Assembly (NCBI GenBank): GCA_019096065.1
Contig: JAGUCH010000008.1
Span: forward strand, 2,361,001 to 2,425,000
Length of the DNA: 64,000 nucleotides
Direction of reading: 5' to 3'
From: Paracyclopina nana
Taxonomy: Eukaryota; Arthropoda; Copepoda; Cyclopoida; Cyclopettidae
Shown here: piece after piece, positions 34,115 through 57,840 of the stretch
Numbering within the stretch: the stretch's first letter is position 1
Layout of the letters: each line of letters opens with the position of its first letter
Translations under genes and position numbers: made by a program
The notes under the pieces: generated by a model
Databases searched by the model: none
The model's input: the letters and a program-made list of their open reading frames with translations, nothing else
What the model was told of the DNA's origin: nothing

Positions 34115-37100
34115 ATGAACAAAGGCTTTTTGGGAATCAGCCTGAAGCTTCAAACGTTTGTGATTGCCACCAGTCAATTTGTAAGCATTCCAAATACTCA
34201 TTTAAGAACTGGTGTGCGACGGTCACACCCTCTGAAGCCTAGGATGGTTAGCATCGGCTTCATGGTCACGGTACCGTTCGCAGCCTCCGGGTGCTGGCCG
34301 GATGTCTACCCGCCTTGGACCCAAAGCCGCAGCCTCGGTGCTCCAACTATGGCGAGGTACATCACATGGCAAGCTTCAGTGCTGTAGACCAGTGGTTGGG
34401 CCTCCTACCCACGTCCTCAATGGCCTCAACGGCCTCGGGCTAGGGTGCATAACTGCCCAGGAAACCTCTATACAAGTTATGGTCGAACAAAGTCAAACAA
34501 GGTTGTCTTATTCACTACGCTTTTAACACCACACAAATTAATGGCAGCAAATACAAAGAAATAAGTACTGCAGTAATTATTCTTGTGGCCATCTTCTTCA
34601 TGCCTCAGCACACTTTGGAGAACTTTGGTGGGACAATAGCAGGGCAGAGCTCACTCAATGGGCCATGTGCACTTGGTCCATGTCTTGCTTCTCTGAAGTC
34701 CCCCATCGAACTCCCCGACTCTTCTCCTTCTTCTCCACTCGTTGCATTGCAGAAAGTTCCATCAGCTTCCATCTGCTTCTCTCCGTTCTTATGCAGCTGC
34801 AGGTCCTCTTCTATGAAGCAGCTAGCAACTCCTCCACACAATGGCTAGCGACTTCTCCACTCAAGGTCAGGTGAATCGCATAGGTAGCAGCAGCAGCAGC
34901 AGCAATAATAAGAGAGTTGGAGGAGATGAAAAAGGGTGTATGGAGTGGTTTTGAGTAAGGAGGTTTTGTGATTTTGAGGTAGTGATGTAGCGGTGAATGG
35001 GCAACCTTCCGGACTTCTGGTGGCTCCACGGGTTCCACGGTTTCCACAGGTTCCACTGGAGGGGTCCAATCAAGTCCTATTCTGGTCGTAACGTGCACCA
35101 GAGACATGATGTACTTATTGCCCATCATTCCCCGGCCCTAACTTTTTCAGCTTTTGAAATATTTTAAGCTCTAAAAATATAAAAAAGGTGTCATTGATCG
35201 CTTACATCACATTAAGGTTGATACAGTTATTATACTAACGTTGCGCCTCCCAGGCCACTCATTCGCACAGTAAGGCGCTGATTTTGGTCAGCATCTTTCT
35301 TGCGATCTCCTCTATTGTAGCGAAGCCGTGAGCGGGATGTATTAGGTCTCACATAGCCTCCATCATCATAACATCGGCTGCATACTCGCCGCCTTTTCCA
35401 AATCAATATGCCCATACACGTGAATCCCAGTGCTGCAGACAATAGGCTCACCGTCAGGATTATTTCCCAATTATTGAATAAACCTCCAAGTTCATCTTCA
35501 GGGAATTTTGTAAAGAACTTCACCATATCACTTTCCCAAGGAGAGTCCTCGTATCCAGTACTTTGAGTTCCAAGGGAAACCTTACAATTGCTAAGGATCT
35601 GATAGGATCCTGGTTCCAATACCATCGAGTTCTTGAAGTCATTTAAACAAGTCCTATTAATCATTGCACTTGAGACCAAATTTAAGAACCCTTTATAATT
35701 AGCACATCCCACATCAGTGAGCGTGTTAGTTTTGAGTGGCTCTAATTCACAGGCGTCAAAAGGGTCACCCAGAGCTAGCCCTAAAAGTACTTTAGCACAG
35801 TGTTGGACTCCTTCTGTCAAGTCAAAGTCCTTGTTTTCACACACGGTTAAATTATGGTCATGAACGAAGCAATCACTATAGATGGGTATTTCCCGAGACA
35901 CAAACACTAGATCATTTCGGCGGGTCAAATACCTATCATGCAGTAAGAATCCGTTTTTGCTTCGTGACACAATATGATATGTGACCTCAGGGGTAGGGTC
36001 CATTTCTTTATACCCAACTATTCCCTGAGTGACAAAGTCTCCACTCTGCTCAGTGTTCGCCAACGGTTCATAAACATTAGTAATGGTGGCCGCATTTCTG
36101 TCACTATTATGCGCCAGAGTTGGTAAGCTGAACCGTGTGCCTGCCTGCCCAAAATTTCTGGCAAATTGCACAACTGTGTCAGCATATGACAATACTTGCT
36201 GCAGATCATTTGGTAATAATCCAGACTTCAAAAATACCTTGCTAAAACCTTTCAGTAGTCGAAAGGCCAAAGAAACTTTCGGTGGTACTCTCAGTGGAGT
36301 GGTATTTGCTATCATGCCATCGGTGAATTTTGTCGATTTACCTGATTCTGCTAGGGCCATCACGGCGTTGTAGGCCTTTTCAAGGAAACTTTTCCTCCCA
36401 GACAATTCAGATTTGACAAAGTCCTTATGGGTGATGACAAAGTCATTTTGGACACATATCGTTGCCTTCCCATCACTGTGTGGTGCATGGGCTTTAACTG
36501 ACGTCATGGTCCTCGGCCCTTGTCCCACAGTGAAATACCCCGTGATACACGGGTAACCTGCAATTATCTCATCATCTGGTTTTTTCTCATACCCCACTTG
36601 AGGAAATGTGGTTTTCCCATCCAAGGACATAGGTACCTCATTGACAATTCGAAACTTTGCACATAAAGTCACCTTAGTGGCAAGAGGGCTTTCCTTTGCC
36701 GTATAACGTAATAGTTCTAGAAAAACGTCCATGTCTTCATAAGTTTTAGGGGCAAATGGTACAAACCCTTGACGTTTGGAGCAAGCTTTGTCGATGGTGT
36801 TAGGGGTACTCTCTTCACCAACTGCCAACATATTCCCAATATGGACCAAGTCCTCCTTGTCCTTAACTTCTTTTACCACGGTGTCAATATTATTCAGGAC
36901 GCCAATTGTTGATTGCAAAAGGCCACTGTAATCCTTCGTATCTAACACCATAGCCTTTTTCACCATTCTAGGATGGTGGACCACTCTAACTGGAACTAGG
37001 GCATGTCCGGAATGGCAAAGTGCCTCATCCAGTACGAACTGAGTATTTGGGTAGTTGGACAGGCCCCAAGTGCCAGATCCCAAAAGGGTGAGTATGAAGA

Positions 37101-40100
37101 CCAATTCAAACAACATCTTACCAGCACAAATTCTGATCAGAAACTATATGGGCCCCAAGACCGCTAACTTTCCTTATAAACCCAGACAAGTGTGGGCACG
37201 CCACCTTACTATGTCTAGACACTCTTTGCTTTTTTCCATTGGTTTTTTATTATCATAGCATGTCGACATGTATGGTAAAAAGTTAAGAGTATTGGCCCAC
37301 AACCAAGTATTTTATCAATATGTACAATTCGATTCTGAAGGGTAATTTCATTTTTTAGAACTGCCCGACAAATCCATTAATCGCCTCAGTGAATACCTTG
37401 ATGTCGCTGGGGGTCATTTCCTCCATTTTAGCCTGGAGGAGATAGTTCACACGCTCCTTATTCTTATCGACTTTGGAGCGCTTAGCGTGCAAAATGTCTG
37501 GTCCATTCGTTCCTGCGCCAAAAGGGCGCCCGCGCGCTACATCGGCGTACAGTCTAGGTCCTCGCCTTGGTTTTTGTTGCCAAGACTTCTCCACGAACGC
37601 GGCTAGTTTTTGGGGCCTGGCCCCGGCTGTGTACCTAACGCATTGCGGATACGTTCCAATGGCTCGATCCACAAACTGGGCTACCATGGTAGGCAGGAGT
37701 GCGGTCATATCGATCTTCACGTCCAATTTTCGTGGTGCTTGGGCCACGCCATTGTTAAGGCAGGACGGCGGTCCCACATACAGTTGCAAGTAAGGCGACG
37801 TCAAATCATGGAACATCCGCGGATCCCAAAATGATGAGTCCAATGTTGGCATGATCTGAATGCAGCCTCGCTTGGTATAATGTTTGGAGACTACTACAGG
37901 GAGTTGAGCTCCACCCTGTCCACGGATTCCATGGACATAATACCCAACAGCTGTTGGGCTCTGGACGGCAGACCAACTTCTGACATTGGCCAACTTATGG
38001 ACATTCTCGTCATATTCCATCTTGTCAGGCAAATTGTAGACTGGTAGATTGTCTAGCATCGGAAATATAACAAGAAAATCGGGAATCTCCCCTCCTTTAC
38101 TCACTGGCTCGATAATCAATTCAATGCAGTCAAAGTTTTTCACCTTCAATGGCCTACGAGGCTCGGTCCGTTCATAGGGTTCTCCATTTATCCTAATCGT
38201 TAGGTCAAAAGGCACCTCCTTTCCAACAGTCATGACCTCTTTCGTAGCTATCTTCAACAGGCTTGCATCATAATGCTGCTGTATAGTAGCTCTGGTCCGG
38301 CTCGCCTCCCTCGCATAGGCCTGTAGACCCTCCATGTGGGGAGGCCTGATCAAATCCTCAAATGGCAATGGGTACCCCAAACTGGAGGATACCCTTTCCA
38401 ATGGGACCTCGAGGGGTTCCTCTTGGTCCTGGTGCCTAGTCGTCTGATTCTGGGCTTGGTTCTCAATATTGACAGCAGGCATGTTGCGATCCATAACTGG
38501 CTCATCATCCTTTAGGAGCTCACTAACCTCTTGTTCGTTGAACTCTCCAGTCTTATCAGTCTCCATCATAGAGACCAATGCAGATTCTCCTTCCATGGAT
38601 TCGGTGATCAGAGACATCCTTAGATTATCGAGGCTATTCAAGCTATCGCTCATTTCCAGACTGTTGCTGTAAGGCCGTAACCTGCCCTTTTTATACACAT
38701 TTTTACAGGTATGCCCCACACTCTCGGGCATTTAAATGCGTGGGTTGTCCCTTTTAAAAAACCCAAGGTCATTTTTTGTCTAGGTAAAAAAGAACAAGTT
38801 AACAGGACTTATACCACTTCCTTATAAGATGGGCGCGTGCGCGCACGCTCATCGTCGAGTTGCACGGACATTTTTGACTTCCTAGGTCGAGAAACGTAGC
38901 GAGGGTGCAACAGGCAGTTGCAACTCTCAGCTTTCACTTAATGTTGATCATTCTCCCATCGGACTTCGTCCAAGCTGGTCACTTTTCTAGAGATATTCCA
39001 ATCCCAATCAACTCGCGATGGTCATTTTAGCCTGGGTTTCTCTAACTCCAGAGGGCAGCTCTACAGAGGCTCCCACTGAGGTTCCAATCCAGCCATCAAT
39101 GGTGGATCCTGCGCTAGTGGATTCTCAAACCACGGGCCCAGTAGGTCCTACTGTTGCTATTCCTGAGAGTGGCATTTCTGAAGCCGAGGGTGGACCTGGA
39201 TTTGGCCCAGCTCCTGTCGACCCCTTTGAAGTGGAGGTGTTTGACCCCCGAGATTTAATGCCAGCGGTACCAAATGGTTATCGTCCCATTGCCCCTCAGA
39301 GGGACTGGATCGATGAGGTTTTCAATTACCACCGATACGGTGTAATGGGATGGATCGGTCTTGGAGCGTCCATTGGGATGGCTTTGGTAAGTTCAACCTT
39401 ATAACTAGTTTTGCAACTATGGCCAAACTTTTACTTACCACCTTCTTTCTTACAGATTTTGCTTGGCATGTTGGTGTACTTCTGCGTGTGGACGTCACGA
39501 TGGTGCCGAAGGTTCGTGGCCACGTTTCGAGCTATCCGTACGGAATCAGCGGCTGCCAGTGGGGAAGCCATGCAAATGCTTCCAACAAAGGCCCCATCAG
39601 AGCATGCAGCGGTATTTCACTGCTGTGCCCCAGAGGTCCGAGCTTTGCCACCAGCCCCGATTATGCGTGACCCTGATGTCCATTCGCTCCAAATGGCAAT
39701 GGCTGCCATGGACCCCTATGGAACGCTACGCCGGAATCCCAGCATCATGTCAGGGCTGGCCCACATCTATGACGTCCCTAATCCCAAGGGCTGGGTAAGG
39801 GCCTATCAATTTATGAACTGTAAACAGGTTACTCATGTACTCTTTTTTCATGCACCTTTTCAGGTACCTGTTAATGAAGGATGCGGGCCGCGAACTTTGA
39901 AGAGACGATCTCGCCGGGCTCGAGCCCGAGATAACCGTCGCTTGGATTCGGCAGCGGGGTCCATTCCGGACAAAGGCGAAGTCAACGAGGCTGAACCTCT
40001 CTCCATCGAAGATGAGGACCAGGAGTCAGCTGAATCAAAGGCTTCCCAAGACGTCAACAGCGATGCCAATTAGGATCGCCACAAACTTATTGCAAGACGA

Positions 40101-49100: not shown

Positions 49101-52100
49101 TGAGGCTTTGAAACAACTTCCTCAGATCACCTAAATGTCGTATGTAATCATCCAATGTAGCAGGCCTAGGCTTGCCAGGGTTCTTACAGGCCACAACCAA
49201 ATCGTCTACATATACACATGTAAAGGGCAATATCTCAGGGTTAAGGGCCTGTTGGAGGAGCTCTGCGAACATTCTCGGAGCAATGGCGATCCCTTGTAGG
49301 CATGACTTACTTTTCAGAAAGACTGATCTATATATACTGCGAGGGACGTTACTGCAAAGCAGCACATATCAGCACTATCAGAGTCCACAGGTAAGTTATC
49401 GTATCCGGATGTTACATCGAAAGATGACATTAAACACGAATTAGATAACATCCCTAGCAAGGTAGGGATAGGTGGCACTATGTGCTCCGAAGTCGTAAAT
49501 ATCAGATTTTTATTAAAAGATGTTAAGTCAACTAGTAGCCGAGGCTTGCGTTGCTTCATAGGCAGCTTTTCATCATTTGGCCTTGAAGTCAAGAAACAAG
49601 GGCAAGCCGAGTACCTATTAAGTGACTTATCCACAATTTCAATTAATCCAGATGACAGCATTAATGCTATTTTACGGTCAACCTGCGTAGTTTCATACTC
49701 CGACATGTTAAATACTTTTGGCACTAATGGTTTATCATCCTTTAACTGGAACTTCATGGGTTCGACATTCCATAGCCTATATGATCTAGGATCCTCCGAG
49801 AATATAGTCTTATATTCTATTAAGAGGTCCCTAAAGTCTTCTCTGACCTCATCCGGAATGTGTTCTAGATCCATGTTCAGGATCGTTTCTGGTTTCAATG
49901 GAAATGTATAACCTGCTACTCCATTTAAAACACGGAGGGGTCAAATTCACTTGGAAATTTCAAAAGGAGATTATAAACCTCATCATATAGTTTTTGGTTA
50001 TTTCTCTCATCTTTAGAAAGCTCCAGGCTAGCTGATACGAGGTCTAGTTCAGAAGGACTTTTTAGAACTGTTTGTCTGACACTGGTATCCACAATAGGAC
50101 CTTCGTAAATAGTAGTGAAGCTCTTAAGTGGCACTTTGATGCCCATGTTCTTTGCCAAGCAAGGCTTGCACGAGCAACCATGTGGTTCAAGTACAAATGG
50201 TATAAATTTACCAAATTTTGTCTTTATATCCTCTTTGGTAAGGTCATCAGGGTACATTTGTAACCCAGATAACACTAGCAATGCAGCGGTGGTTGCCATA
50301 CAAAGTGGGTCACCTACATGCACATCGCCATCCATAAGTGTTCTGATCCACACGTCGTCGGCCACATTTTGGTACCGTAATTGACCAATTATTATGTACA
50401 TAAGCGTGGTTAAGTAGCCAATATTCTCAGCATGTTCGCTAGGGACATGGAATATTAACTCAACATTGTTGGACAACTTAAACATGATACCATGAGCTCC
50501 AAGAACATTTAGTTCAAAATACTTATCTAGTTCATTTCTTTGATAAGCAAGGGGGTAATTCTCATACTCATGTATCATCATAGTTATTATGACCCTATCC
50601 ATCCCATTGAGGTAGGATTCAATAGGACACAAGGCAATGGTCATGCATGGTGGGCAAATATACTTATATTTTAGCCATACTACTTTGAGTTTATCCACCA
50701 TCATATTCATCTTTATTACAATGCGCTTTTGTTCGCCAGACAAAAGTTTATGCCCTGGGACAATAACAGCCCACGGTAATTCATCCCATTTTTCTCGTTT
50801 CATAAATTTGCTAATTATCACATCAGTTATCTCTTCGTAACCATCACTTTGGTTAGCTGAGATAAATACGTAATTTCCTTTTCTACTAATCAAGGGCTTG
50901 TGGCTTCACCTTAATGGCTCATAGGCATTGAAAAATGCATATCAGTAAAAGAAAGACCATTTATATCCGTAAACTGCACAATTACGTGCGAATCCAAATA
51001 ATTGCAGTAACATGACTCCATTTCATGCTCCAGGGCCTTTAAACTAATGTTAGCCACATGGGCTGCAACCGTACTCTTAAATTTCTGTTTCTTGACAATC
51101 CTGGCTCGCCCAATCACTGCATGTGCATTTAAGTAGATGGGATCCTCAGTATTATTCCCAATATTTACTGGGAAAGTACCTTTACGAGTGACAGCAGTAA
51201 GTGCCCCCTCAGAGGTCACTCCGCGGTACTCGTTACTAGGCATAAAGTTTAAGTACTTATCCACCAATCCGGAATAAACATTTTTCTGGTGATGGGTACG
51301 ACCAAGGTCGTCATCTTCGTCAGAGTCAGAATCTATTTGAATGTCATTACTGATGACAGGTAAATCATGAGGTAAACTAGCCATGGTGGTCACTTCTTCT
51401 CCAGGGAGCAGAGTGATCCCTTCATTTATTGCCACTGGGTAGAAAGCCTCTTTTGATAGTAAGAGTGGAATTTTCTTATGTTTAGATTTTCCAGGGAAAT
51501 CCATAAAGTGCTTTCCATCTTTACTAGTCATCCGGACATTGTTGTCCACTAATAACGAGTTTCCTATCATTAATAGTGTATCACAATCAGATACAAGGAA
51601 AACAGCCTGTCTGATTAAAACACGATTTCCAAATGCAACTTGAATAGAGACAGCTTCATTCCCTGGGAATTCTTCTCCATTAAAGTTCTTAATTACATAA
51701 TTAGTTTCAACTCGAGGTAGAGTGTAACCAATCTTGTCTTCGATCAGTTTTACAAGGGTGCGTGATATTATCTGCACCATTGCTCCACTGTCAAATAAAG
51801 CATGCAAACGTATTTTTCCAGTTATCTCCACTGGTATAAAATACCTTTCACAAACATTGTGTAGCTTTAATGAGTATATACTCAGCATGTCATCTTCAAG
51901 TTCCGGATTCGGTAAAGGTTCAAAATGTGTTACTGGCTCTGCTTCATTAGCATTTACCGAGGCCAGATGTGTAACGATACCATCATTACTACAAGTTTTT
52001 TGCTCATCACTCGTGCTACCTTTTACAAAGTAGTACCATAAAGCTATTATTGCTCCACTACAGATTACTGTAATTGGCCAATAATCCCAACCAAATAAGC

Positions 52101-55100
52101 AATATTGACATATTGTTATTGCAAACAGTATTATGCTAATCTCAATTACAGTCATAGTATGCTGATGGACAAACCGACTTTTTCTACCCCTTATTGCAAG
52201 GACCAGAGCCTTTTTGTCCTCACTTCCACGAGTCATAATTTCGGCATTTTTCACAGATTTCTCCTTTAAATAATCAAAGTAAGCTCGTCCTACTTCTTTG
52301 TTACATTCTCCCATCATAAATGAAGGCAAGATGTAACTATCTTTATCATTCTTATTGGGAGTTTTTGTACTTGGTCCCATTATTGTTTACGAGCAGGTCG
52401 TGTCTTCCAACACTGTTCTCCCCTAAACTCAAGGTGCAATCCTTTACACAACGGGCACAATGTGCCATCGTTTCTAATTGAGGTCAAATTCGTGTTTGGG
52501 TAATTCGTACACTGTGTAGCGTAATGCATTTGGTTGCAGAACAAGCACCCATTAGTCTGAAGAGGGTTTCCTTCAGGCAACTTAGATGTATCTATGTTAA
52601 AAGTTTTTCCCAGCCTATTTATTTTCTCGGATGGTGATTCAGCTTTCATCATAGCTACTTCAACAGCTTGCCTACTCAATTCAAAATTTGCTCGAGCCAA
52701 CTCGCTTTGTAGCTCATTTATTATTTTAGCACTTCGTTGACTACGGCCAGAGGCTGCCGACATAGTGCTAGCACTGTCTAACACCTCTTCTTCAGTAGCT
52801 TCAACCATAGCAATTCTAGGTTTGGCACGCATATTGGGTACCATTGGCAGCCTCTCCTCTTTATGAGCCCTATCCAGGTCCCTTGGCACATAAGTACCTA
52901 GGTCACTACCAATTAGGTTCATCATGATATTGTAGGCGTGCAAACTCCTAGCAGGTATATTCGCTCTCAGCAGATAGTCGTTGTATTTGTTTACTAACGA
53001 CTGGTAATTCTGAGGCCAATGACGTCCTAGGAGTGCAAAACCATCAGAGATGGCTTCAGAGACTGCATGAGCATCTCCGCCATCTCCAATGGTTGTGCTA
53101 TGTATCTTCATTCGTAGTCGAAGAATTGCCTTAAGTGTGGCAGTGAAGCACTCAGTAGGCTTCCGGATCATCTCCTGAATGAGGAAATATGGATCCTCTT
53201 TACGCACAAACTGCGTGTAGTTAAAGATATCTTGCCATAGCAATTCCATACCATCTTTTCCTTCTCCAGCCATCCCCTTAAAATACTCACTAGTATTCTG
53301 GGATGAAGCCTCACACATGGCTGTTAACAAAGCTGCATGAGACCAATGCTGTCTGCCAGCCTCGTTCGCCATATAGTCCAGAAAATTTATTATATTCTCA
53401 GCAGTTAATGAAGAACTATGTAAATCAAACTTTTTAGTATATTTGTGCCTAATCTCCTTCATTGACTGTGAGCTTGCATACTTAACATGGCCATTCGTAG
53501 GTGCAGCGATGTAACCTCTCATGGTAGTCGGATCATAAATGCTCCTAGAAGTGTCAGCTGATACTCCAGCGGCCACACTTATTTCAGGGGTCTTCAAGTA
53601 GCCCTCTGCCAGTATCTGCTTTTGGAGAGAAGTAAACTCGTCCCTCGTGCTAAGTACACTAAAGAGCTTCTGCATCTCAATCAATTTCTTTCCTGAGGAT
53701 AAGTTTGGGTCAACCATCTGAAGGATTACTCGTCTGGCTGATTCCACATCCTTAATCTCGTCGGTGTTAATTAACTTCAGCCTCTCTGAAATCGGAGCAG
53801 ACTCATCGTAGATGACGTCAGTTTCCGGCACCATTCTTTCCTTCGTCGCAGCATCTACTATGCTTAAGGTTCTTTCTAAATTCTTACTGAAGATAGACTC
53901 TACTTTTGCCCCAACCATGTGCTTAGCCGTGATTTGTGCAGAGGCAATGATTTTATTTGCCGTGCTTGCATCATGCATTTTCGTGTAGTAAGCTTTTACC
54001 GTGTTCAATTCCTGAATATTCAAATGGCCTCCTGACAACATCTTTTGTACCATCCTATGTACAACTTTCATTGGAGGAAGCGTGACAGAATTAGTCAAGT
54101 TGTGCAAATCACGAGGATTCATTTTAGTCGAGGTTAGGACTGACTTATTTTGGCCATTCAGATCAACACCTGTAGTGAACTCATGATGGTTAGTCCCAGG
54201 TGGACTTGCTATCGAAGACATATCTGGAACAGCATTACTCGTCTCATTGTTTGGGAAATGTACACTCTGGCCTGAAGTTTTCTGTGGCTTCAGGTTAAGC
54301 GGCTCATTTAGGAAATAATCGATTTGTAGGCCATAAAGCCTCGCTACAATGGAAAATCCATCTCCAAATGCCCGTATCTTTAGCCAATTCCTGGATATCA
54401 ATGTCGCAACCATTTCATGCGTCCCTGACATTGCGTAGGTCATGGAGCTTCCATCAACTTCTTGGATACGCTGCAGATCTTTCTTTTCCTCAATACGAGT
54501 TAGGAACTCATCCAGACCAAAACAAATGCATAATAAAGCACAGGTCGTGCTTGTCAATGAATTAGGTCAAGTGCATCAATATATTTAACCACATTTACAA
54601 CCTGGCCTACTGGATCTTTAAGAGGCATAGTCCTAATGATTGCCGTAATATGATCATCCAACGGTCTAATTGGCTCCCTAGGAACAATTACTATCCGAGT
54701 CCTATCCCAGACAGCTGCTATTTGTGCTGGGGTTACCGTAACAAACTCTAGTGCTTCAGGGTAAGCAACGTGTGGCAGAAATCTTTGCAAGGCAGTCCTG
54801 CTGGTCCCATTTGGGTGGCATTGGGATAAGTACCCTTGAAAAGTGTCCTCACTAATCCCAAGATGTTGCAACAATCGATCCTTTACTTTCGTAACTTCCT
54901 CAGCCAGAGTAGGTCCAGTGATCCTAGAATCCTGATTAGCCATTCTTATCTTGTAAAAAGCGTGACGGAGTCACACGAAGTATTTCTTATCTCTTAGAGG
55001 TGCAACGGAGTCACACGCAATATTCTGGTCTTAGTACACTACTGTGTGTACTAAATTCGGTAATACCGAATTAAAAGCTATACGCTGTTCAAAGCACAGG

Positions 55101-57840
55101 GAAGCTTGTCCTAATTACTACGCCGCGTCAAGTGACACAGAGAAAAAGGTTGCAGTTGCTAAGCTCGTTTATTTATTTTTTGTCTAGGCTATGAGCGGCC
55201 AAGACAAAACACACACACAAACGCACGCACAAATACACACACTCACTTATTACAATATAAAAGATGGAGTAAAATTTGGCACTACTGGTGCCAACAGGTG
55301 TATGGATGGTAATTTCTTCTAAGTCTCTGAAACAAAGGTGCATCAACTTTTTACGCAAAAAAGGTATGCCACTTCGCCAACCAGTGTCGACTCAGTGAAT
55401 GAAAAAATAAAAGTTTGCCCACTCCTCCTCGAGTTGCGGGCCGGCCAACCTTCCCTGTGCCCTCGGCAACTTGTCCAAGGTTAGCCAGTTTTTTGGGCCC
55501 CAAACACGCATTTTCCTTTGTGGCTCCCACTCTGGCTCCACGCGTGGCCTATTTGGGGTTCATTGACTCGCAGGTCATAGATTACATCATCTTCTTCCAT
55601 CTGTGTGGCCAAACCCACGGACGAGACCCACTAGTGTCGCAACACTCTTGCGCTCACTCGCCCCATTATGGATAGGCAACAGAGGCTCAGGTCGCAACCT
55701 GCACCTTGGCTGGCTTTCCGGCTGCCATGGCACCCATACTCCAAGCTATGCCATGCGGAGCCTGCACGCATGCATTCACCTCCGGGAAAGACAGTGTCAT
55801 TGTTACTTTGTGTAGGCCCATCATCATAACAATGGTCCATGGAAGACATCATCAACGGGCTGGTGGTACGTCACGGCCTGTACCTTCTTGCACTCCCCGC
55901 GCGCCAGTTCCAACCCGCCAACGGCATCAATGCGCAATTTGGGTCTAAGGGAATCTAAAGCCTACGCACCACATAGGCCCAAATGCCATCGGAGTGACCC
56001 CCATCGGCTCGTCAGCCTTCGGGATTTTGCTTTTGTACTGTAGTAGACACACCCTGATCGCAATCAGCATGCGGCCCAACCTGCGCCGCAGAGCAGGAAT
56101 CCTGATCCACACCAAGACATTTTCCGGGACTTCATGGGGTTTTGGTTATCAAACCTTTAGGAGAGAGAGTGGCCTTCAATCCCTCCGGGGCCTCCAAAAT
56201 GGTGTGCGACGGTCACACCCTCTGAAGCCTAGGATGGTTAGCATCGGCTTCATGGTCACGGTACCGTTCGCAGCCTCCGGGTGCTGGCCGGATGTCTACC
56301 CGCCTTGGACCCAAAGCCGCAGCCTCGGTGCTCCAACTATGGCGAGGTACATCACATGGCAAGCTTCAGTGCTGTAGACCAGTGGTTGGGCCTCCTACCC
56401 ACGTCCTCAATGGCCTCAACGGCCTCGGGCTAGGGTGCATAACTGCCCAGGAAACCTCTATACAAGTTATGGTCGAACAAAGTCAAACAAGGTTGTCTTA
56501 TTCACTACGCTTTTAACACCACACAAATTAATGGCAGCAAATACAAAGAAATAAGTACTGCAGTAATTATTCTTGTGGCCATCTTCTTCATGCCTCAGCA
56601 CACTTTGGAGAACTTTGGTGGGACAATAGCAGGGCAGAGCTCACTCAATGGGCCATGTGCACTTGGTCCATGTCTTGCTTCTCTGAAGTCCCCCATCGAA
56701 CTCCCCGACTCTTCTCCTTCTTCTCCACTCGTTGCATTGCAGAAAGTTCCATCAGCTTCCATCTGCTTCTCTCCGTTCTTATGCAGCTGCAGGTCCTCTT
56801 CTATGAAGCAGCTAGCAACTCCTCCACACAATGGCTAGCGACTTCTCCACTCAAGGTCAGGTGAATCGCATAGGTAGCAGCAGCAGCAGCAGCAATAATA
56901 AGAGAGTTGGAGGAGATGAAAAAGGGTGTATGGAGTGGTTTTGAGTAAGGAGGTTTTGTGATTTTGAGGTAGTGATGTAGCGGTGAATGGGCAACCTTCC
57001 GGACTTCTGGTGGCTCCACGGGTTCCACGGTTTCCACAGGTTCCACTGGAGGGGTCCAATCAAGTCCTATTCTGGTCGTAACGTGCACCAGAGACATGAT
57101 GTACTTATTGCCCATCAGAACTAGAATATGTATTTTTTGTAGATTTCCTCCACCAGTTTGGCATGCCTTGCTGCAATTATGCTTCATTCACCAGAAAACT
57201 TCATCAAGGACTGGGCCAACATCCAGAAATCAGAAAACGCTAAGATACACTACATCAATGAAATTGGGGAAAATGCAGTAGAATGTACTACAAAGAAAGC
57301 CATTAAGAAGATACATGATTACCATTGATATTTTTTGCATTATTTATTTTAGTGCTGGTTGGTGCTCTCACAATTTGGTTGGCTTCAATTTTGCTGATTC
57401 TGGGCATCAAGAAGAACTCGACTGGTTTGATATTACCTTGGGTTGTCATAAATATTGGTGATCTTGCTGGCGGCATTATTGTTTTCATATCGAAATTGTC
57501 GTCACCTAGGAGTCATCTTGGCCCCTCGAAGATAGGGGCTTCTATCTGTTATTTTTTGCTCAGCATCTATTTCATAAAGTCTGTTCATGCATACTACAAG
57601 AGCCTAAAGAGGCAGAAGCAATTCTCGAGGGAAATGCTGCAGCTGTCTACCACAACCTTAAATTCTGGTAAATAGGTGTACTTCAAGAAACTTCTAATCT
57701 CTAATTTTGCTGATTTATTAATAGAGCTCTCCATTTCCACGACTACAGAGCTGCGAACATTTCCTAGCTCTAGGCCACAAAGCTTGAAAAGTCAGAAAAG
57801 CTCCGATGATGATGATGATTTCATTCTATATGAGAAATAA
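34115..57840 (+). CDS. DUF4728-like four-helix membrane protein, intron 1 carries the LTR element
   Basis: Four exons join in phase: 34115-34180, 57143-57284, 57353-57667 and 57725-57840, giving 212 residues. The second donor (GTACTA) is weak but keeps the frame. Exon 1 encodes MNKGFLGISLKLQTFVIATS. Exon 3 encodes three strong helices with KNSTGLILPWVVINIG, a pattern typical of small arthropod tetraspan proteins of the DUF4728 type. The C-terminus is polar and ends DDDDDFILYEK, with AATAAA overlapping the stop. Intron 1 is 22,962 bp. Removing the LTR element and one target duplication leaves about 50 bp, normal for this genome. Splicing across the element is inferred. If it fails, the gene is disrupted. 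Confidence 0.65.
34210..35127 (-). repeat. 3' LTR of the element (left copy)
   Basis: 918 bp, starting TGGTGTGCGACGG and ending TTGCCCATCA on the + strand, so TG...CA in either direction. Same length as, and apparently the same sequence as, 56200-57117. Contains a short CAG repeat near 34887. Confidence 0.93.
35128..35140 (-). promoter_or_regulatory. polypurine tract next to the 3' LTR
   Basis: On the minus strand GGGCCGGGGAA immediately precedes the LTR start (TGATGGGC). Its position and purine bias fit the plus-strand primer of reverse transcription, although two pyrimidines interrupt it. Confidence 0.55.
35230..37116 (-). CDS. env-like type I membrane glycoprotein
   Basis: 628 residues from an ATG. 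Signal peptide at ~1-19 (MLFELVFILTLLGSGTWG), a large Cys-containing ectodomain with several N-glycosylation sequons, one transmembrane helix at ~552-574 (IILTVSLLSAALGFTCMGIL) and a basic ~54-residue tail with CSRC near the membrane. It occupies the env position, just before the polypurine tract and 3' LTR. I recognise no specific fusion-protein class and see no obvious furin site. A TATA-like TTTATAA at 37174-37180 (minus strand) lies ~58 bp before the ATG, so it may be transcribed from its own promoter. The frame is intact. Function in cell-to-cell transfer is inference from topology and position. Confidence 0.65.
   Translation of the reverse strand: MLFELVFILTLLGSGTWGLSNYPNTQFVLDEALCHSGHALVPVRVVHHPRMVKKAMVLDTKDYSGLLQSTIGVLNNIDTVVKEVKDKEDLVHIGNMLAVGEESTPNTIDKACSKRQGFVPFAPKTYEDMDVFLELLRYTAKESPLATKVTLCAKFRIVNEVPMSLDGKTTFPQVGYEKKPDDEIIAGYPCITGYFTVGQGPRTMTSVKAHAPHSDGKATICVQNDFVITHKDFVKSELSGRKSFLEKAYNAVMALAESGKSTKFTDGMIANTTPLRVPPKVSLAFRLLKGFSKVFLKSGLLPNDLQQVLSYADTVVQFARNFGQAGTRFSLPTLAHNSDRNAATITNVYEPLANTEQSGDFVTQGIVGYKEMDPTPEVTYHIVSRSKNGFLLHDRYLTRRNDLVFVSREIPIYSDCFVHDHNLTVCENKDFDLTEGVQHCAKVLLGLALGDPFDACELEPLKTNTLTDVGCANYKGFLNLVSSAMINRTCLNDFKNSMVLEPGSYQILSNCKVSLGTQSTGYEDSPWESDMVKFFTKFPEDELGGLFNNWEIILTVSLLSAALGFTCMGILIWKRRRVCSRCYDDGGYVRPNTSRSRLRYNRGDRKKDADQNQRLTVRMSGLGGATLV
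37174..37180 (-). promoter_or_regulatory. TATA box of the env-like gene
   Basis: TTTATAAGG on the minus strand, ~58 bp upstream of the env-like ATG. That is a suitable distance for a TSS with a ~30 base leader. Confidence 0.45.
37355..38653 (-). CDS. element-encoded protein of unknown function
   Basis: Intact frame of 432 residues from MSDSLNSLDN. A 26-residue longer version starts at 38731. I prefer the inner start because a strong TATA box (TATAAAAAGG) lies only ~35 bp upstream of it, downstream of the outer ATG. The first ~120 residues are acidic and Ser/Met-rich. The middle (about 150-340) is a folded domain with beta-strand-like segments (VPFDLTIRING, CIELIIEPV, IPDFLVIFPML, GYYVHGIRGQGGAQLPVVV). 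The end is basic (KSWQQKPRRGPRLYADVARGR) then helical. There is no signal peptide or membrane helix. A structural (matrix/tegument/capsid-like) role would fit beside an envelope gene but is not shown. No family recognised. Confidence 0.6.
   Translation of the reverse strand: MSDSLNSLDNLRMSLITESMEGESALVSMMETDKTGEFNEQEVSELLKDDEPVMDRNMPAVNIENQAQNQTTRHQDQEEPLEVPLERVSSSLGYPLPFEDLIRPPHMEGLQAYAREASRTRATIQQHYDASLLKIATKEVMTVGKEVPFDLTIRINGEPYERTEPRRPLKVKNFDCIELIIEPVSKGGEIPDFLVIFPMLDNLPVYNLPDKMEYDENVHKLANVRSWSAVQSPTAVGYYVHGIRGQGGAQLPVVVSKHYTKRGCIQIMPTLDSSFWDPRMFHDLTSPYLQLYVGPPSCLNNGVAQAPRKLDVKIDMTALLPTMVAQFVDRAIGTYPQCVRYTAGARPQKLAAFVEKSWQQKPRRGPRLYADVARGRPFGAGTNGPDILHAKRSKVDKNKERVNYLLQAKMEEMTPSDIKVFTEAINGFVGQF
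38688..38695 (-). promoter_or_regulatory. TATA box of the 432-residue gene
   Basis: TATAAAAA on the minus strand, followed by GGGCAGG, 35-42 bases before the ATG at 38653. It implies a very short leader. Confidence 0.55.
38732..39017. promoter_or_regulatory. divergent intergenic region inside the element
   Basis: About 290 bp between the minus-strand unknown gene and a plus-strand spliced gene. It contains a perfect 14 bp palindrome GCGTGCGCGCACGC within 38829-38848. A short upstream ATG frame at 38941 overlaps the plus-strand start. Probably a bidirectional control region. Confidence 0.45.
39018..40073 (+). CDS. antisense spliced gene: single-pass membrane protein
   Basis: Lies on the opposite strand to gag-pol. 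Three exons: 39018-39386, 39456-39794 and 39864-40073, giving 305 residues. Introns are 69 bp each with GTAAGT/TTACAG and GTAAGG/TTTCAG sites. The second can also be read through in frame. The N-terminal ~105 residues are acidic and rich in Pro, Thr, Ser and Val. One hydrophobic helix at ~109-134 spans the first intron (GWIGLGASIGMAL, then ILLGMLVYFCVW). The C-terminus is cytosolic-type: Arg-rich next to the membrane, a second RRSRRARARD cluster and an acidic tail. An AATAAA at 40364-40369 closes the unit. No family recognised. A type III or I membrane protein is inferred, since the N-terminus lacks a good signal peptide. Confidence 0.6.
40364..40369 (+). terminator. poly(A) signal of the antisense membrane-protein gene
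   Basis: AATAAA about 290 bp after the stop codon and upstream of the next plus-strand gene. Confidence 0.55.
40546..41321 (+). CDS. antisense spliced gene: Arg/Pro/Gly-rich protein
   Basis: A run of good splice sites supports a plus-strand transcript: exons 40546-40572 (MAGFLHGLF), 40644-40797, 40856-41077 and 41140 onward, with three 58-71 bp GTAAGT introns. The joined frame is Thr/Ala/Pro-rich, then strongly Arg-rich (RRDPLGRGPERGRRPR), ~194 residues if the stop at 41319 is used. An AATAAA at 41243-41248 lies before that stop, so the last exon or frame may differ. In another frame exon 3 is also open and Gly/Arg/Pro-rich. This block is far more GC-rich than its neighbours. A TAATAAAAAG box near 40454 could be its promoter. 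Function unknown. The basic, low-complexity product might bind nucleic acid. Confidence 0.4.
41243..41248 (+). terminator. poly(A) signal of the Arg/Pro-rich gene
   Basis: AATAAA inside the last predicted exon. If used, it would cut the transcript before the stop at 41319. Confidence 0.4.
41322..42890. other. non-coding part of the element with interspersed 23 bp repeats
   Basis: No convincing ORF on either strand. It contains most of the five copies of a short GCATTCCAGCTCGG motif (next entry). Confidence 0.6.
41493..42635 (+). repeat. five interspersed copies of a 23 bp motif
   Basis: GCATTCCAGCTCGGNCTTGA and close variants occur at 41493, 41580, 41692, 41730 and 42613, all in the same orientation and usually followed by TGC. 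Two copies share an upstream ATTATAGC. The spacing is irregular (16-860 bp), so this is not a tandem array. The copies may be protein-binding sites of an enhancer or packaging region. Confidence 0.75.
42897..43874 (+). CDS. possible third antisense spliced gene
   Basis: Weak model. TATATATA at ~42897 and a C-run precede a possible leader ending at a good donor (TTCAG/GTAAGT, ~42972). A polypyrimidine acceptor (TTTTTAG) ends just before an ATG at 43343. CDS 43343-43531 then joins 43581-43874 in frame after a good acceptor (CTCATTTCAG), but its donor GTGTGA is poor. The product would be ~160 residues with several Cys and sequons (NHSF, NITYS). No family recognised. The frame could be chance. 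Confidence 0.22.
43875..44562. other. non-coding stretch between pol tail and antisense genes
   Basis: AT-rich, with only short chance ORFs. It probably holds the 3' end of the pol transcript and the end of any antisense transcript. Confidence 0.5.
44563..44793 (-). CDS. last segment of the pol tail
   Basis: About 76 codons in a frame shifted relative to the long tail ORF and overlapping its end. Charged and helical (KRELLEEVIPNWKLNK ... YDELYKLAFKKFK). Probably the natural C-terminus of the polyprotein, separated by a frame change near 44723-44790. Confidence 0.5.
   Translation of the reverse strand: MLGLQIRTKGQTKKRELLEEVIPNWKLNKNMAAVHDYIQFLKATGMDHQDDSNINEMKKLRLTYDELYKLAFKKFK
44723..46633 (-). 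CDS. ~636-residue C-terminal extension of pol
   Basis: Follows the integrase and overlaps the preceding frame by 30 bp. No enzyme motif is seen. It is largely disordered, rich in Ser, Pro, Glu and Thr, with Pro-rich stretches and an Arg/Lys block (RRQLELSPRKRPPSPP). Near its end a ~30-residue module occurs twice: LRFLPHNLRRRKNVNYRSLA and IRILPRRQLRERKETVDYRE, each followed by G-(F/I)-R-(E/K)-Y. Many gypsy elements have a short chromatin-tethering domain after integrase. This tail is much longer, and the duplicated basic module is a candidate tether. It might also be a separate protein released by proteolysis. Confidence 0.55.
   Translation of the reverse strand: MRGHTKASSIVASQSSLISQSTSMDTEPSAIHQTYKRSGSILMQKAASLFKPSDILRIQEENKQLVQKQWEQYDRKKLEEKYLADNAGNNILHKEASDSLSDTGTDDFIEQAIALSANTGPNEAFYEDMLALSQRGPPTFAEMAQQERLYPNLPSVKPDHISTPDRSNVSEGTLAGVSPVKWAFRGQYRDQRVPDIPESPEKYHTPDQSMSATPNKDNDNIEEIVEKAASFIAPSKFDTDLESLSAGLESMQLALPTDPFGGNTHDDENESSDSDDTTTIYYTARKNLRRTPLTKSIKQNVQKAIDIVRRQLELSPRKRPPSPPIDNPMEGPSAPKPEIYGAEGGEPQVRYTIMKSPVRKPDLQPRNSELPNAGVPQTVPSTNVLEHFSAKVTPLGDLAMTENEHLAHPSTPEVTHPTVRLTSPVVPQPGTQKPPEAAVRAPYEPEKLSPLRFLPHNLRRRKNVNYRSLAGFREYNKNNVPAGPPAIVQPDPLEALTRPEAALTAEQNTSPLQNVQQLLDQPSSSAATPIAGSKEPESSAAVQPTVEPEISEPTPIRILPRRQLRERKETVDYRELAGIRKYGKEKSKAGKAQKYFPNIPRIAPLDREEKEFARVRFTNTNQRPDQKERVTRRGNS
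46603..47118 (-). CDS. integrase C-terminal domain segment
   Basis: 171 codons from MPFYHLGRDVFEI. Contains an SH3-like GSLVLVIKHPINKQRYKF ... FEVIDIG unit, as found in gypsy integrase C-terminal domains. It overlaps the end of the core-domain frame by 19 bases at a T run, so it is read only after a frame change. Its own last residues diverge where the next frame takes over. Confidence 0.65.
   Translation of the reverse strand: MPFYHLGRDVFEILSESEDKIHKAEWRQRMREYDLEEQFHLEKMKATERPSFKPEIGSLVLVIKHPINKQRYKFMDDLFEVIDIGQHSTVTVKPYLYDGLTREVSLDHVKLYRFHELYRFLPEKLSNLLKRPYTPEEILRKKQGMRLSNFLKGQPLKVMIIVCGVIQRPLV
47100..48086 (-). CDS. integrase core segment of pol
   Basis: Inserts the element cDNA into host DNA. 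The zinc-binding N-domain (His 94, His 97 or 99, Cys 129, Cys 132) is followed by the catalytic core with Asp 161 (VMIDLAKF), Asp 222 (LLADNGAQL) and Glu 262 (AYAENAIR). The D-to-E spacing is 39 residues, slightly more than the usual 35 of Ty3/gypsy. No ATG start: the frame begins inside the RNase H frame, so a frame change separates the two. Confidence 0.85.
   Translation of the reverse strand: MCTVKRRISPHLPGITRNLLIKLQQNCEETQKIINLIMLSPPEKVPLDVAVKYRVLDGALLVIRKNVKLPFSVATNTKVYMSMPNCVYLMACIHLLHNHLGSKKTNTLFTQSMYSTYSARISRIIIGACMHCALYRQANTRFVGKGRFRIPTQPWELVMIDLAKFDDTLVKGSSAKDLLVFVDVYSKMIIAKPLLDAKYKQVANAMEEVISLFGVPKTLLADNGAQLTTNKALQRLVDRYKIKELCHYRTLSPYKHSNAYAENAIRIIRSALVLNSNSYNMRLCDVFKTSIYAINNRPLTYLAYTDDKGVKITPTPFRYFSIKCRSII
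48073..49365 (-). CDS. reverse transcriptase palm/thumb and RNase H segment of pol
   Basis: Copies element RNA into DNA in a cytoplasmic particle. Contains the RT LQGIAIAP motif, the catalytic YVDD (residues 52-55) and the gypsy-like HLGDLRKLFQSLKD ... LGHLIS ... FIGMTNW connection. The following RNase H-type domain has YLVVDSG, then a Glu in FQREALGVL and VTDCLS as likely metal ligands. It has no ATG start and overlaps the preceding RT segment in another frame. The YVDD arrangement and connection place it in Ty3/gypsy rather than BEL/Pao, whose RT motifs differ. Confidence 0.88.
   Translation of the reverse strand: MLLCSNVPRSIYRSVFLKSKSCLQGIAIAPRMFAELLQQALNPEILPFTCVYVDDLVVACKNPGKPRPATLDDYIRHLGDLRKLFQSLKDLNALLQIKKTQLGVKEATVLGHLISIDENGIMTMRMPDKFRSAFDDFPIPTTKKQLQKFIGMTNWLSQYCPNMATYTAPLLDVLQTAQGKTGKFTFTAFQEKCFYKVIDEIKTGMSLALPRFKEGYLVVDSGVISTSALLMEVNEDGKAVCVGAHSARFPLSVCLSYHSFQREALGVLTMINHFKSILFAYERLVIVTDCLSIASVLASSFTGKDAFTHRLAARIYSLPVAWKLRAVPRTEVEVVDVLLNKYHQTPEGETIFYAPYSIAGQITKDIYANKYPLPDAIKDKVLTTQELLTHVYDTLVNSGTMSKTLLQKRLHCLNDKWVDMIGTKPPFVHC
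49314..49898 (-). CDS. reverse transcriptase N-terminal segment of pol
   Basis: Fingers and first palm half of RT. LLVDLTSFNKNLI matches the gypsy RLVVDYRxLN motif, and MSSFDVTSGYDNLPV holds the first catalytic Asp. It ends at a stop just after VYIDQSF in a short T/C run. The continuation is in the next frame (49365-48073), so this is a single-base frame change within RT. No ATG. The frame is open upstream into the preceding segment. Confidence 0.85.
   Translation of the reverse strand: MKPETILNMDLEHIPDEVREDFRDLLIEYKTIFSEDPRSYRLWNVEPMKFQLKDDKPLVPKVFNMSEYETTQVDRKIALMLSSGLIEIVDKSLNRYSACPCFLTSRPNDEKLPMKQRKPRLLVDLTSFNKNLIFTTSEHIVPPIPTLLGMLSNSCLMSSFDVTSGYDNLPVDSDSADMCCFAVTSLAVYIDQSF
49925..50893 (-). 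CDS. unknown segment between protease and RT
   Basis: 322 codons without an ATG near the start. No family recognised. It contains Cys pairs (CPPCMTIALC, and HGCSCKPC near the end) that could bind a metal, and a mixed alpha/beta composition. Its last ~50 residues (SELDLVSASLELSKDER ... FPSEFDPS) look like the linker that precedes RT. It ends at a T run where the frame changes into RT. An extra ~250-residue domain at this place is unusual for gypsy pol. Confidence 0.55.
   Translation of the reverse strand: MISRKGNYVFISANQSDGYEEITDVIISKFMKREKWDELPWAVIVPGHKLLSGEQKRIVIKMNMMVDKLKVVWLKYKYICPPCMTIALCPIESYLNGMDRVIITMMIHEYENYPLAYQRNELDKYFELNVLGAHGIMFKLSNNVELIFHVPSEHAENIGYLTTLMYIIIGQLRYQNVADDVWIRTLMDGDVHVGDPLCMATTAALLVLSGLQMYPDDLTKEDIKTKFGKFIPFVLEPHGCSCKPCLAKNMGIKVPLKSFTTIYEGPIVDTSVRQTVLKSPSELDLVSASLELSKDERNNQKLYDEVYNLLLKFPSEFDPSVF
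50911..52380 (-). CDS. aspartic protease ORF with two membrane helices
   Basis: 489 residues with an ATG that overlaps the gag stop (TAATG), suggesting reinitiation or frameshifting as the gag-pol switch. The N-terminal ~75 residues are polar. Two hydrophobic helices follow at ~78-98 (EISIILFAITICQYCLFGW) and ~101-120 (PITVICSGAIIALWYYFV). The retropepsin domain begins ~190 with LHALFDSGA (catalytic Asp 197) and continues with a flap-like region and LLMIGNSLL. A second domain (~300-489) is unassigned. It cleaves the element polyproteins. Membrane anchoring is inferred from the helices and is not typical of retroelement proteases. Confidence 0.75.
   Translation of the reverse strand: MGPSTKTPNKNDKDSYILPSFMMGECNKEVGRAYFDYLKEKSVKNAEIMTRGSEDKKALVLAIRGRKSRFVHQHTMTVIEISIILFAITICQYCLFGWDYWPITVICSGAIIALWYYFVKGSTSDEQKTCSNDGIVTHLASVNANEAEPVTHFEPLPNPELEDDMLSIYSLKLHNVCERYFIPVEITGKIRLHALFDSGAMVQIISRTLVKLIEDKIGYTLPRVETNYVIKNFNGEEFPGNEAVSIQVAFGNRVLIRQAVFLVSDCDTLLMIGNSLLVDNNVRMTSKDGKHFMDFPGKSKHKKIPLLLSKEAFYPVAINEGITLLPGEEVTTMASLPHDLPVISNDIQIDSDSDEDDDLGRTHHQKNVYSGLVDKYLNFMPSNEYRGVTSEGALTAVTRKGTFPVNIGNNTEDPIYLNAHAVIGRARIVKKQKFKSTVAAHVANISLKALEHEMESCYCNYLDSHVIVQFTDINGLSFTDMHFSMPMSH
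52380..54557 (-). CDS. Gag, main segment with zinc knuckles
   Basis: About 725 codons. The main particle protein that packages element RNA. Residues ~100-620 are mostly helical and acidic/basic, capsid-like. A coiled-coil-like stretch precedes two Cys/His knuckles at the C-terminus: CLFCNQMHYATQC (671-683, CX2CX3HX4C) and CPLCKGLHLEFRGEQC (701-716). CX2CX3HX4C spacing is more usual in BEL/Pao Gag than in gypsy (CX2CX4HX4C), in contrast with the gypsy-like RT. The frame has no ATG at its beginning and overlaps the end of the preceding segment. A single-base frame change near 54556 joins the two. Confidence 0.75.
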   Translation of the reverse strand: MTSTTCALLCICFGLDEFLTRIEEKKDLQRIQEVDGSSMTYAMSGTHEMVATLISRNWLKIRAFGDGFSIVARLYGLQIDYFLNEPLNLKPQKTSGQSVHFPNNETSNAVPDMSSIASPPGTNHHEFTTGVDLNGQNKSVLTSTKMNPRDLHNLTNSVTLPPMKVVHRMVQKMLSGGHLNIQELNTVKAYYTKMHDASTANKIIASAQITAKHMVGAKVESIFSKNLERTLSIVDAATKERMVPETDVIYDESAPISERLKLINTDEIKDVESARRVILQMVDPNLSSGKKLIEMQKLFSVLSTRDEFTSLQKQILAEGYLKTPEISVAAGVSADTSRSIYDPTTMRGYIAAPTNGHVKYASSQSMKEIRHKYTKKFDLHSSSLTAENIINFLDYMANEAGRQHWSHAALLTAMCEASSQNTSEYFKGMAGEGKDGMELLWQDIFNYTQFVRKEDPYFLIQEMIRKPTECFTATLKAILRLRMKIHSTTIGDGGDAHAVSEAISDGFALLGRHWPQNYQSLVNKYNDYLLRANIPARSLHAYNIMMNLIGSDLGTYVPRDLDRAHKEERLPMVPNMRAKPRIAMVEATEEEVLDSASTMSAASGRSQRSAKIINELQSELARANFELSRQAVEVAMMKAESPSEKINRLGKTFNIDTSKLPEGNPLQTNGCLFCNQMHYATQCTNYPNTNLTSIRNDGTLCPLCKGLHLEFRGEQCWKTRPARKQ
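54554..54943 (-). CDS. Gag N-terminal segment
   Basis: 129 codons from an ATG (MANQDSRITGP), the first start after the leader. Helical, with no known motif. It ends in a TGA that the next frame overlaps by a few bases, so it is probably the N-terminus of Gag separated by a frame change. A separate small protein is also possible. Confidence 0.55.
   Translation of the reverse strand: MANQDSRITGPTLAEEVTKVKDRLLQHLGISEDTFQGYLSQCHPNGTSRTALQRFLPHVAYPEALEFVTVTPAQIAAVWDRTRIVIVPREPIRPLDDHITAIIRTMPLKDPVGQVVNVVKYIDALDLIH
54944..56174. other. 5' leader of the element
   Basis: 1.2 kb between the primer site and the first gag ATG, without a supported ORF. It has two copies of ACGGAGTCACACG (54966 and 55007), a palindrome TTCGGTAATACCGAA near 55053 and a CA-rich tract (55207-55242). 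RNA packaging signals would be expected here. Confidence 0.6.
56175..56196 (-). promoter_or_regulatory. primer binding site (tRNA 3'-end complement)
   Basis: Three bases from the 5' LTR. Read on the + strand it looks like a tRNA 3' end: T-loop TTCAATC, stem CCTCC, acceptor GGGGCCT and terminal CCA. The minus strand therefore offers TGGAGGCCCCGGAGGGATTG to a tRNA primer. One base seems missing against a standard acceptor arm. The tRNA identity is unknown. Confidence 0.7.
56200..57117 (-). repeat. 5' LTR of the element (right copy)
   Basis: Direct repeat of 34210-35127 at a constant offset of 21,990 bp with no indel. On the element strand it starts TGATGGGC and ends CACACCA. It should hold the main promoter. 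I could not place a TATA box with confidence. Confidence 0.93.

Follow-up and report, generated by a model that had tools for sequence, protein, structure and literature searches.

We analysed a stretch of 64,000 nucleotides from the copepod Paracyclopina nana (GenBank assembly GCA_019096065.1, contig JAGUCH010000008.1), hereafter the window, which spans C8:2361001-2425000 in our numbering of a 92 Mb genome in 10 contigs. A single 23-kilobase long terminal repeat (LTR) element occupies window positions 34210-57117 on the minus strand. As shown in Table 1, it carries gag and pol, followed by a further sense gene (ORF458, named for its open reading frame, ORF) and an env-like gene (env), together with two putatively spliced plus-strand genes, gene 1 and gene 2. 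A first-pass annotation of the same sequence had reported an env-like gene, an unknown gene and plus-strand spliced genes here, all of which are present. Its estimate of at least 10 kb outside gag-pol was slightly high: with the pol tail read to its stop, the non-gag-pol internal sequence extends from 35128 to about 44560, or ~9.4 kb.

Table 1. Features of the LTR element, in window coordinates.
Feature	Position	Strand	Basis
Target-site duplication GAAC, left copy	34206..34209	.	sequence reading and LTR/flank comparison
3' LTR, 918 bp	34210..35127	-	LTR search and comparison; element reads on the minus strand
Polypurine-tract-like stretch adjoining the 3' LTR, interrupted by CC	35128..35139	-	presumed role
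Env-like gene, 628 aa, open in the window copy	35230..37116	-	ORFs, genome search, alignment, selection, hydrophobicity
ORF458, open in the window copy	37355..38731	-	ORFs, genome search, alignment, selection
Candidate bidirectional promoter in the gap separating the head-to-head genes ORF458 and gene 1	38732..39017	.	presumed role; TATA-like words by eye, no alignment between subfamilies
Gene 1, antisense to gag-pol, exons 39018-39386, 39456-39794, 39864-40073	39018..40073	+	alignment, selection, hydrophobicity
Gene 2, antisense, exon 1 40546-40572, exon 2 40644-40797	40546..41248	+	alignment of copies
Gene 2, exon 3 40856 (or 40874)-41077, exon 4 from 41140, AATAAA 41243-41248		+	alignment of copies
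Gene 2 cassette, 18 nt in-frame, AEEIL-TAG, between two AG acceptors	40856..40873	+	alignment of copies
Pol: protease, reverse transcriptase, RNase H, integrase and long C-terminal tail	44560..52600 (approximate)	-	ORFs, Pfam, genome reverse transcriptase search
Gag, two overlapping frames in the window copy	52380..54970	-	ORFs
Primer-binding-site-like stretch, begins TGG at 56196, 3 nt inside the 5' LTR	56176..56196	-	genome 19-mer search
5' LTR, 918 bp	56200..57117	-	LTR search and comparison
Target-site duplication GAAC, right copy	57118..57121	.	sequence reading and LTR/flank comparison

The two LTRs of the window copy are identical at 918/918 positions, as the first-pass annotation had stated, and end in TG...CA when read on the minus strand. 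We examined four copies with both LTRs and their flanks, the window copy among them. Within every copy the LTR pair was identical at 918/918 positions, and every copy had its own 4-bp target duplication between flanks that differed from copy to copy. The duplication previously given as GAAC(T) is therefore confirmed as GAAC, with a length of 4 bp rather than 5, the length also found in the three further copies. Between copies, LTR identity was 899-912/918 (6 to 19 differing positions) among three same-orientation copies, the fourth being stored on the other strand. Identical LTRs within copies, differing LTRs between copies and separate duplications are the signature of recent, separate retrotransposition events; copies of this element arise by reverse transcription and integration. 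Searching the genome for the LTR returned 41 rows from 40 of 128 candidates scored, of which 36 could be paired by hand into 18 pairs and 5 remained unpaired. The spacing was 22.9-23.4 kb in 15/18 pairs and 27.7-30.0 kb in the other three, which may be copies with later insertions. At C4:9131359-9133086, two family LTRs stand directly head to tail with no internal part between them.

A polypurine tract is present, although interrupted, and a conserved stretch lies where a primer-binding site would be expected. A 19-mer within that stretch (window 56176-56194) had 71 occurrences in the genome at ≤ 2 mismatches. Among these, 69 lay 4-22 kb upstream of a family reverse transcriptase (RT) match, using 84 RT rows, and the match lists placed the other two near other pieces of the family.

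In the window pol, the Pfam models RVT_1 and rve (integrase core) scored above their curated cut-offs, and RNase H and retropepsin/Ty3-peptidase models scored below theirs. The order of protease, RT, RNase H and integrase is that of Ty3/gypsy elements (Metaviridae). Gag had no Pfam match in a scan of the window frames, and its C-terminal Cys/His motifs resemble knuckles. In the window copy neither gag nor pol forms a single frame; each is divided among overlapping frames, a point absent from the first-pass annotation. We considered and rejected short introns as the cause in pol. Among the 46 close RT matches in the genome (≥ 92% identity), 14 had a single pol frame of 2,646-2,669 amino acids (all above our 2,640-residue limit), 12 of them without a stop within the match and two with one. 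Frames of intact length in other copies imply that the breaks belong to the window copy. Over a 2.1-kb RT piece, the window differed from another copy by 3 mismatches and 2 single-base gaps, both gaps sitting in the window copy within runs of one base, as either real decay or an assembly error could produce. Within the pol tail, ARAGORN reported a plus-strand tRNA-Asn (44963-45043), probably by chance.

The gene order of the window recurs throughout the genome. At least 42/46 close RT matches carried all three genes downstream in the order of the window copy, with ORF458 and env in the orientation of the RT and gene 1 in the reverse one, at median distances from the RT of 8.5 kb (gene 1), 9.6 kb (ORF458) and 11.2 kb (env). 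Of the other four, three had no env in the list and one had none of the three genes. Such counts are lower bounds because only the best candidates were scored. The co-occurrence lists comprised 83 of 98 rows for RT, 76 of 96 for ORF458, 56 of 110 for gene 1 and 71/71 for env, and the rows left out were mostly second pieces of the same copy. Beyond subfamily A, subfamily B (RT identity about 75-86%) had ORF458 and env at 10/13 RT matches and ORF458 alone at 3. Env lay downstream of the RT in 7/7 matches of subfamily C and 7/7 of subfamily D (14/14 together), in some cases in pieces or with stops; the A env query missed these copies among the rows scored, and queries from their own env genes were used. 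Ten RT fragments fell outside the four groups, and 9/10 had all three genes.

For A-B, A-C and A-D, respectively, protein identity was 83, 67 and 50% in the RT, 44, 26 and 28% in env, and about 41, 21 and 21% in ORF458. A search with D env found A env at E ~1e-72 and C env at ~1e-63, and on these alignments we are sure of the kinship of env across subfamilies. For C and for D, the interval from pol to env was read in a single copy. Each contained a relative of ORF458 (E 7e-11 in C and 3e-13 in D, as single comparisons with A) and, in the position that gene 1 occupies in A, an antisense ORF that includes a hydrophobic segment. The conserved unit comprises gag-pol, antisense gene 1, ORF458 and env. 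The first-pass annotation had proposed searching other copies for the same order; the contrary pattern it named, copies consisting of LTRs plus gag-pol only, was not what we found.

This shared order also decides against a nested insertion or misassembly, in which a single copy would have received another element or host genes between its pol and its 3' LTR. Introns, and genes in both orientations, do look host-like at first sight, and the three widely spaced LTR pairs would suit such an event. However, the order is shared by 42/46 close copies with differing flanks, and env stays beside the RT in subfamilies down to 50% RT identity. We therefore rejected this explanation as extremely improbable, since only a genome-wide assembly artefact could rescue it.

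The stretch after pol can apparently take up genes. In the D copy, two adjoining sense ORFs of 211 and 240 amino acids, both matching DUF5662 (L043:2993-4517), sit between pol and the antisense ORF. Of 16 DUF5662 matches in the genome, 14 belong to the seven D copies, one (C7:5693318) lies in a D-like fragment and one (C2:11424858) lies outside, and the same search matched 0/14 control genomes. Given the DUF5662 pair in D and the separate genomic copy, these data suggest gene capture by the lineage as the likely source. Beside one D copy (L049, 6822-7699) is a gene that may resemble arthropod Dpr immunoglobulin proteins.

Env has the architecture of an envelope protein: an N-terminal hydrophobic, signal-like stretch, N-glycosylation motifs, one predicted transmembrane stretch near the C-terminus (residues 552-570), and cysteines invariant across five members (A, A', B, C and D). 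Both hydrophobic stretches were found in A, B and C, whereas D had only the C-terminal one at the threshold used. Rows running near end to end without a stop numbered 35/71 for env and 35/96 for ORF458, the remainder being pieces, rows with stops or members of a more distant subfamily. To quantify constraint, we gave 29 copies for each gene, excluding the window's own locus, and left uncounted those that lacked a usable match or did not reach 4 synonymous differences. The ratio of nonsynonymous to synonymous substitution rates (dN/dS) was 0.115 for env (25 counted copies) and 0.055 for ORF458 (26 counted copies). Control frames of env gave 1.36 and 1.80 when shifted and 1.24, 0.197 and 1.61 in antisense; for ORF458, no copy was countable in shifted frames 1 and 2. 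These figures replaced a first env count using a fixed anchor word, which had found frames in 16/30 loci and a median dN/dS of 0.076 over 96 pairs. Comparisons of A with A' and B were mostly saturated and hence excluded. Env, ORF458 and gene 1 (below) are under purifying selection.

Database searches returned little for either protein. Neither env nor ORF458 had a match at E ≤ 0.001 in the protein database (7,995 and 4,291 candidates scored, respectively), neither had relatives among the viral contigs searched, and matches among solved structures were at chance level. In Pfam, the five env members yielded at E ≤ 1 only DUF1265, in one member (E 0.15), and ORF458 yielded DUF3736 (0.035) in one member, both at chance level. 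The lack of detected viral relatives for env and ORF458, together with the likely gene capture seen in D, would fit a purely intracellular retrotransposon that had captured host membrane genes, with env serving no role in entry. We regard this as less likely than not, because env combines a C-terminal transmembrane stretch, N-glycosylation motifs and conserved cysteines with a signal-like stretch in A, B and C, occupies the position of a retroviral env and is constrained.

Gene 1 would encode a product of 305 amino acids with one predicted transmembrane stretch (residues 116-134) and, by eye, tyrosine motifs in its tail in A and B. The GT/AG boundaries of both introns were kept in 7/7 rows of the alignment, even in A', where exon identity is only 53-59%. 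The polyadenylation word AATAAA at 40364-40369 was likewise kept in 7/7 rows. In frame 0, median dN/dS was 0.062, 0.075 and 0.193 for exons 1, 2 and 3, although from few pairs: of 6 copies given, 4, 6 and 5 were counted, and synonymous saturation made the ratio incomputable for 1/4, 3/6 and 0/5. The other two frames exceeded 1, and frame 0 had no new stop in any counted copy. The exon-bearing plus-strand frames (38991-39401 and 39405-40070) contained neither TRP28 nor any Pfam match at E ≤ 0.1, and a match to SgrT (0.015) in a plus-strand frame overlapping gene 1 was at chance level.

Gene 2 begins with MAGFL in A, and its putative introns measure 70-71 nt, 56-65 nt and (in the window) 62 nt. 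It was open throughout in 5/8 rows (L044, L046, L047, L048 and B) and out of frame somewhere in the window copy, L045 and A'; exon 2 was in frame in 5/8 rows. Exon 3 is headed by the cassette, after whose TAG the frame runs on for 67-69 codons. The cassette did not vary among the window, A' and the 5 A copies compared, and B matched it at 17/18 positions; it is nearly unchanged between A and B although the flanking exons diverge. Beyond the TAG, the ratio of nonsynonymous to synonymous differences per site (pN/pS), computed in the coding frame only, was 0.11-0.33 in 10/10 pairs within A and 0.37-0.53 in 5 pairs against B. Owing to these low values, the part after the TAG is very probably translated. 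The hydrophobic stretch of gene 2 scored 1.57, just below our threshold of 1.6.

The in-frame TAG of gene 2 is probably either skipped or read through. Stop-codon readthrough in place of a second splice acceptor would account for a TAG-bearing cassette conserved at 17/18 positions between A and B and for the continuing frame. We think it rather improbable, because the cassette starts after CAG and ends in TAG followed by G, itself a usable AG acceptor, so tandem acceptors suffice without a special mechanism. Two alternative AG acceptors 18 nt apart are the simplest reading, and the choice between them could yield either a short protein or a longer one with the hydrophobic stretch. Relative to L047 and L048, gene 2 (40644-41077) diverges far more than neighbouring regions between otherwise similar copies, possibly because copies have recombined or because the gene evolves fast. 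The ~3.2 kb separating gene 2 from pol (41340-44560) are unannotated; they include a possible 5' exon, a word resembling TATATA near 42900 and short ORFs in either orientation, such as those at 41872-42177 and 43545-43874 on the plus strand.

Among solved structures, the RT profile matched Ty3 best (E 3.5e-24), followed by an entry named enzymatic polyprotein (8r0s) and another RT. We take 8r0s to be from a caulimovirus and the other to be of foamy type. Only 5 of 7,992 candidates scored from 5.8 billion proteins reached E ≤ 0.001, at 21-25% identity. In a 13-row tree, A-D formed one clade (99/97) on a long stem, placed next to BEL at 63/59 with a long-branch warning. The RT therefore appears distantly Ty3-like, on a long branch whose position has weak support. 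As to the nearest relative, "gypsy-like pol" in the first-pass annotation is right. We rejected BEL/Pao identity, as the window pol frames had no Peptidase_A17 match and the RT profile missed 3/3 BEL elements of the same genome at E ≤ 100; despite this rejection, the weakly supported tree joins BEL to the clade. BEL elements are themselves abundant in this genome: Peptidase_A17 matched at least 150 times, often within open frames 2,000-3,100 amino acids long.

A divergent RT clade on a long stem with so few distant hits, a complex gene set and young copies would all be consistent with the endogenised state of an infectious virus lineage, one that is enveloped, reverse-transcribing and separate from the families known so far. 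Against it, beyond those few RT matches we found no relatives of the family RT, env or ORF458 outside this genome, in collections that may omit close records. We consider such an origin a serious candidate, at somewhat less than even odds.

Taken together, we interpret the window element as a recent insertion of an old, recently spreading giant Ty3-like LTR lineage with a retrovirus-like complex gene set, to which we assign a probability of roughly 0.85. In the proposed cycle, the 5' LTR would drive a minus-strand genomic RNA of about 22 kb, from which Gag and Pol would be made via a frame change. Env and ORF458 might be expressed from subgenomic RNAs, either spliced or started at internal promoters, and genes 1 and 2 from internal plus-strand promoters followed by splicing. 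The introns of genes 1 and 2 lie on the strand opposite the genomic RNA, where an element copied through RNA would be expected to retain them: being antisense in that RNA, they would be unspliceable and so persist through the cycle. Env, gene 1 and gene 2 (the last with a probable transmembrane stretch) most likely act in membrane passage, whether budding, cell-to-cell spread or germ-line entry, and by analogy with retroviral envelope and accessory proteins most likely also in host interaction.

Several observations weigh against this interpretation. No primer tRNA gene stands out among the 71 genome sites at ≤ 2 mismatches in 19. Gag, pol and gene 2 are all broken in the window copy, whereas env, ORF458 and gene 1 are open; the copy may have moved only with help, or the breaks may have arisen later or in assembly. 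The promoters, splicing and frame changes are inferred from sequence. Gene 1 is recognisable in A and A' and weakly in B, where the first exon matches at E 2e-7 over 61 residues and no similarity was found to the second; the C antisense ORF likewise has no sequence similarity to the second exon. Gene 2 was recognised in no subfamily other than A, A' and B, and the C and D pieces read lack its cassette words. As for env, the N-terminal hydrophobic stretch of D fails the threshold used, and no sequence relative of known fusion function was found in the databases searched. One antisense control frame of env reached the low ratio of 0.197 with 45 new stops, which implies that a low ratio alone is no proof of coding. 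Single-sequence structure prediction without an alignment gave useless models, with a mean predicted local distance difference test score (pLDDT) of 32 for both env and ORF458. The label "envelope" is thus drawn from architecture alone.

A bolder reading goes further: that these copies are endogenous genomes of enveloped reverse-transcribing viruses that infect an invertebrate, form a new lineage at family level and rank among the largest retrovirus-like genomes known. Besides the envelope, spliced antisense genes would supply two more proteins, both likely to sit in membranes, and one of them would switch between short and long forms by tandem acceptor or readthrough. We offer this tentatively and judge it more doubtful than probable. 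The element tests the upper size of retroelement genomes and shows a way for an element that replicates through RNA to keep introns, by having them antisense to its genomic RNA. Its dozens of copies, spread over several subfamilies within a single 92-Mb genome, provide a study case for retrovirus-like complexity in invertebrates. Elsewhere in the window, positions 411-570 contain a 65-nt inverted repeat (arms 94% complementary, separated by 30 nt) that may be a hairpin or a small DNA transposon.

The closest known systems each share part of this layout. Ty3/gypsy elements (Metaviridae), including yeast Ty3, share the order of protease, RT, RNase H and integrase, and Ty3 is the best structure match; in contrast, the present RT is only a distant relative, and the element has 23 kb, a long pol tail and ~9.4 kb holding further genes. 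Errantiviruses such as gypsy and ZAM of Drosophila resemble it in having env downstream of pol and possibly in having an arthropod host, and gypsy makes a duplication of 4 bp, the same length as here. Unlike theirs, the env described here has no Pfam match better than E 0.15, and a relation to baculovirus F or gypsy Env was not detected at the sequence level (both from 5 members against Pfam). To our knowledge, antisense spliced genes and ORF458 are not part of errantiviruses. Giant LTR elements as such are already known. Within the open-licence literature, covered through titles and abstract openings, we found no animal LTR element combining env with spliced antisense genes, let alone one with a free-standing env gene, an additional sense gene and a pair of spliced antisense genes, in keeping with the earlier remark that no described family has this layout.

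Burro of planarians is likewise gypsy-like and giant, with an internal part of up to 25 kb, a total above 30 kb and an env-like part; its env lies inside a giant polyprotein between gag and pol, whereas here env is a separate 3' gene accompanied by two intron-bearing antisense genes (PMC6431247). The same review of giant transposons notes that LTR elements can capture ORFs after pol (PMC6431247). LTR elements of bdelloid rotifers have extra ORF3s after pol, some with transmembrane stretches and env-like in one lineage; several ORF3 types are named, and the portions available mention no antisense spliced genes (PMC5408684). Plant elements carry conserved antisense ORFs between pol and the 3' LTR (PMC7264820, PMC11963269). 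Grande has an antisense gene with its own promoter, Ogre is giant, and in Retand TRP28 occurs in 57/104 antisense ORFs, with no sense ORF containing a transmembrane part in that region according to the accessible text (PMC11963269, PMC7264820, PMC6431247). In contrast to Retand, Grande and Ogre so described, the antisense genes here appear spliced, gene 1 would encode a membrane protein, and env is present. Retroviral antisense genes such as HBZ of human T-cell leukaemia virus (HTLV) offer a further parallel as antisense genes within an LTR element (PMC8622228, PMC11963269, PMC7264820). The HTLV antisense promoter lies in the 3' LTR (PMC7264820), whereas the antisense genes of the present element are internal and gene 1 is predicted to encode a membrane protein.

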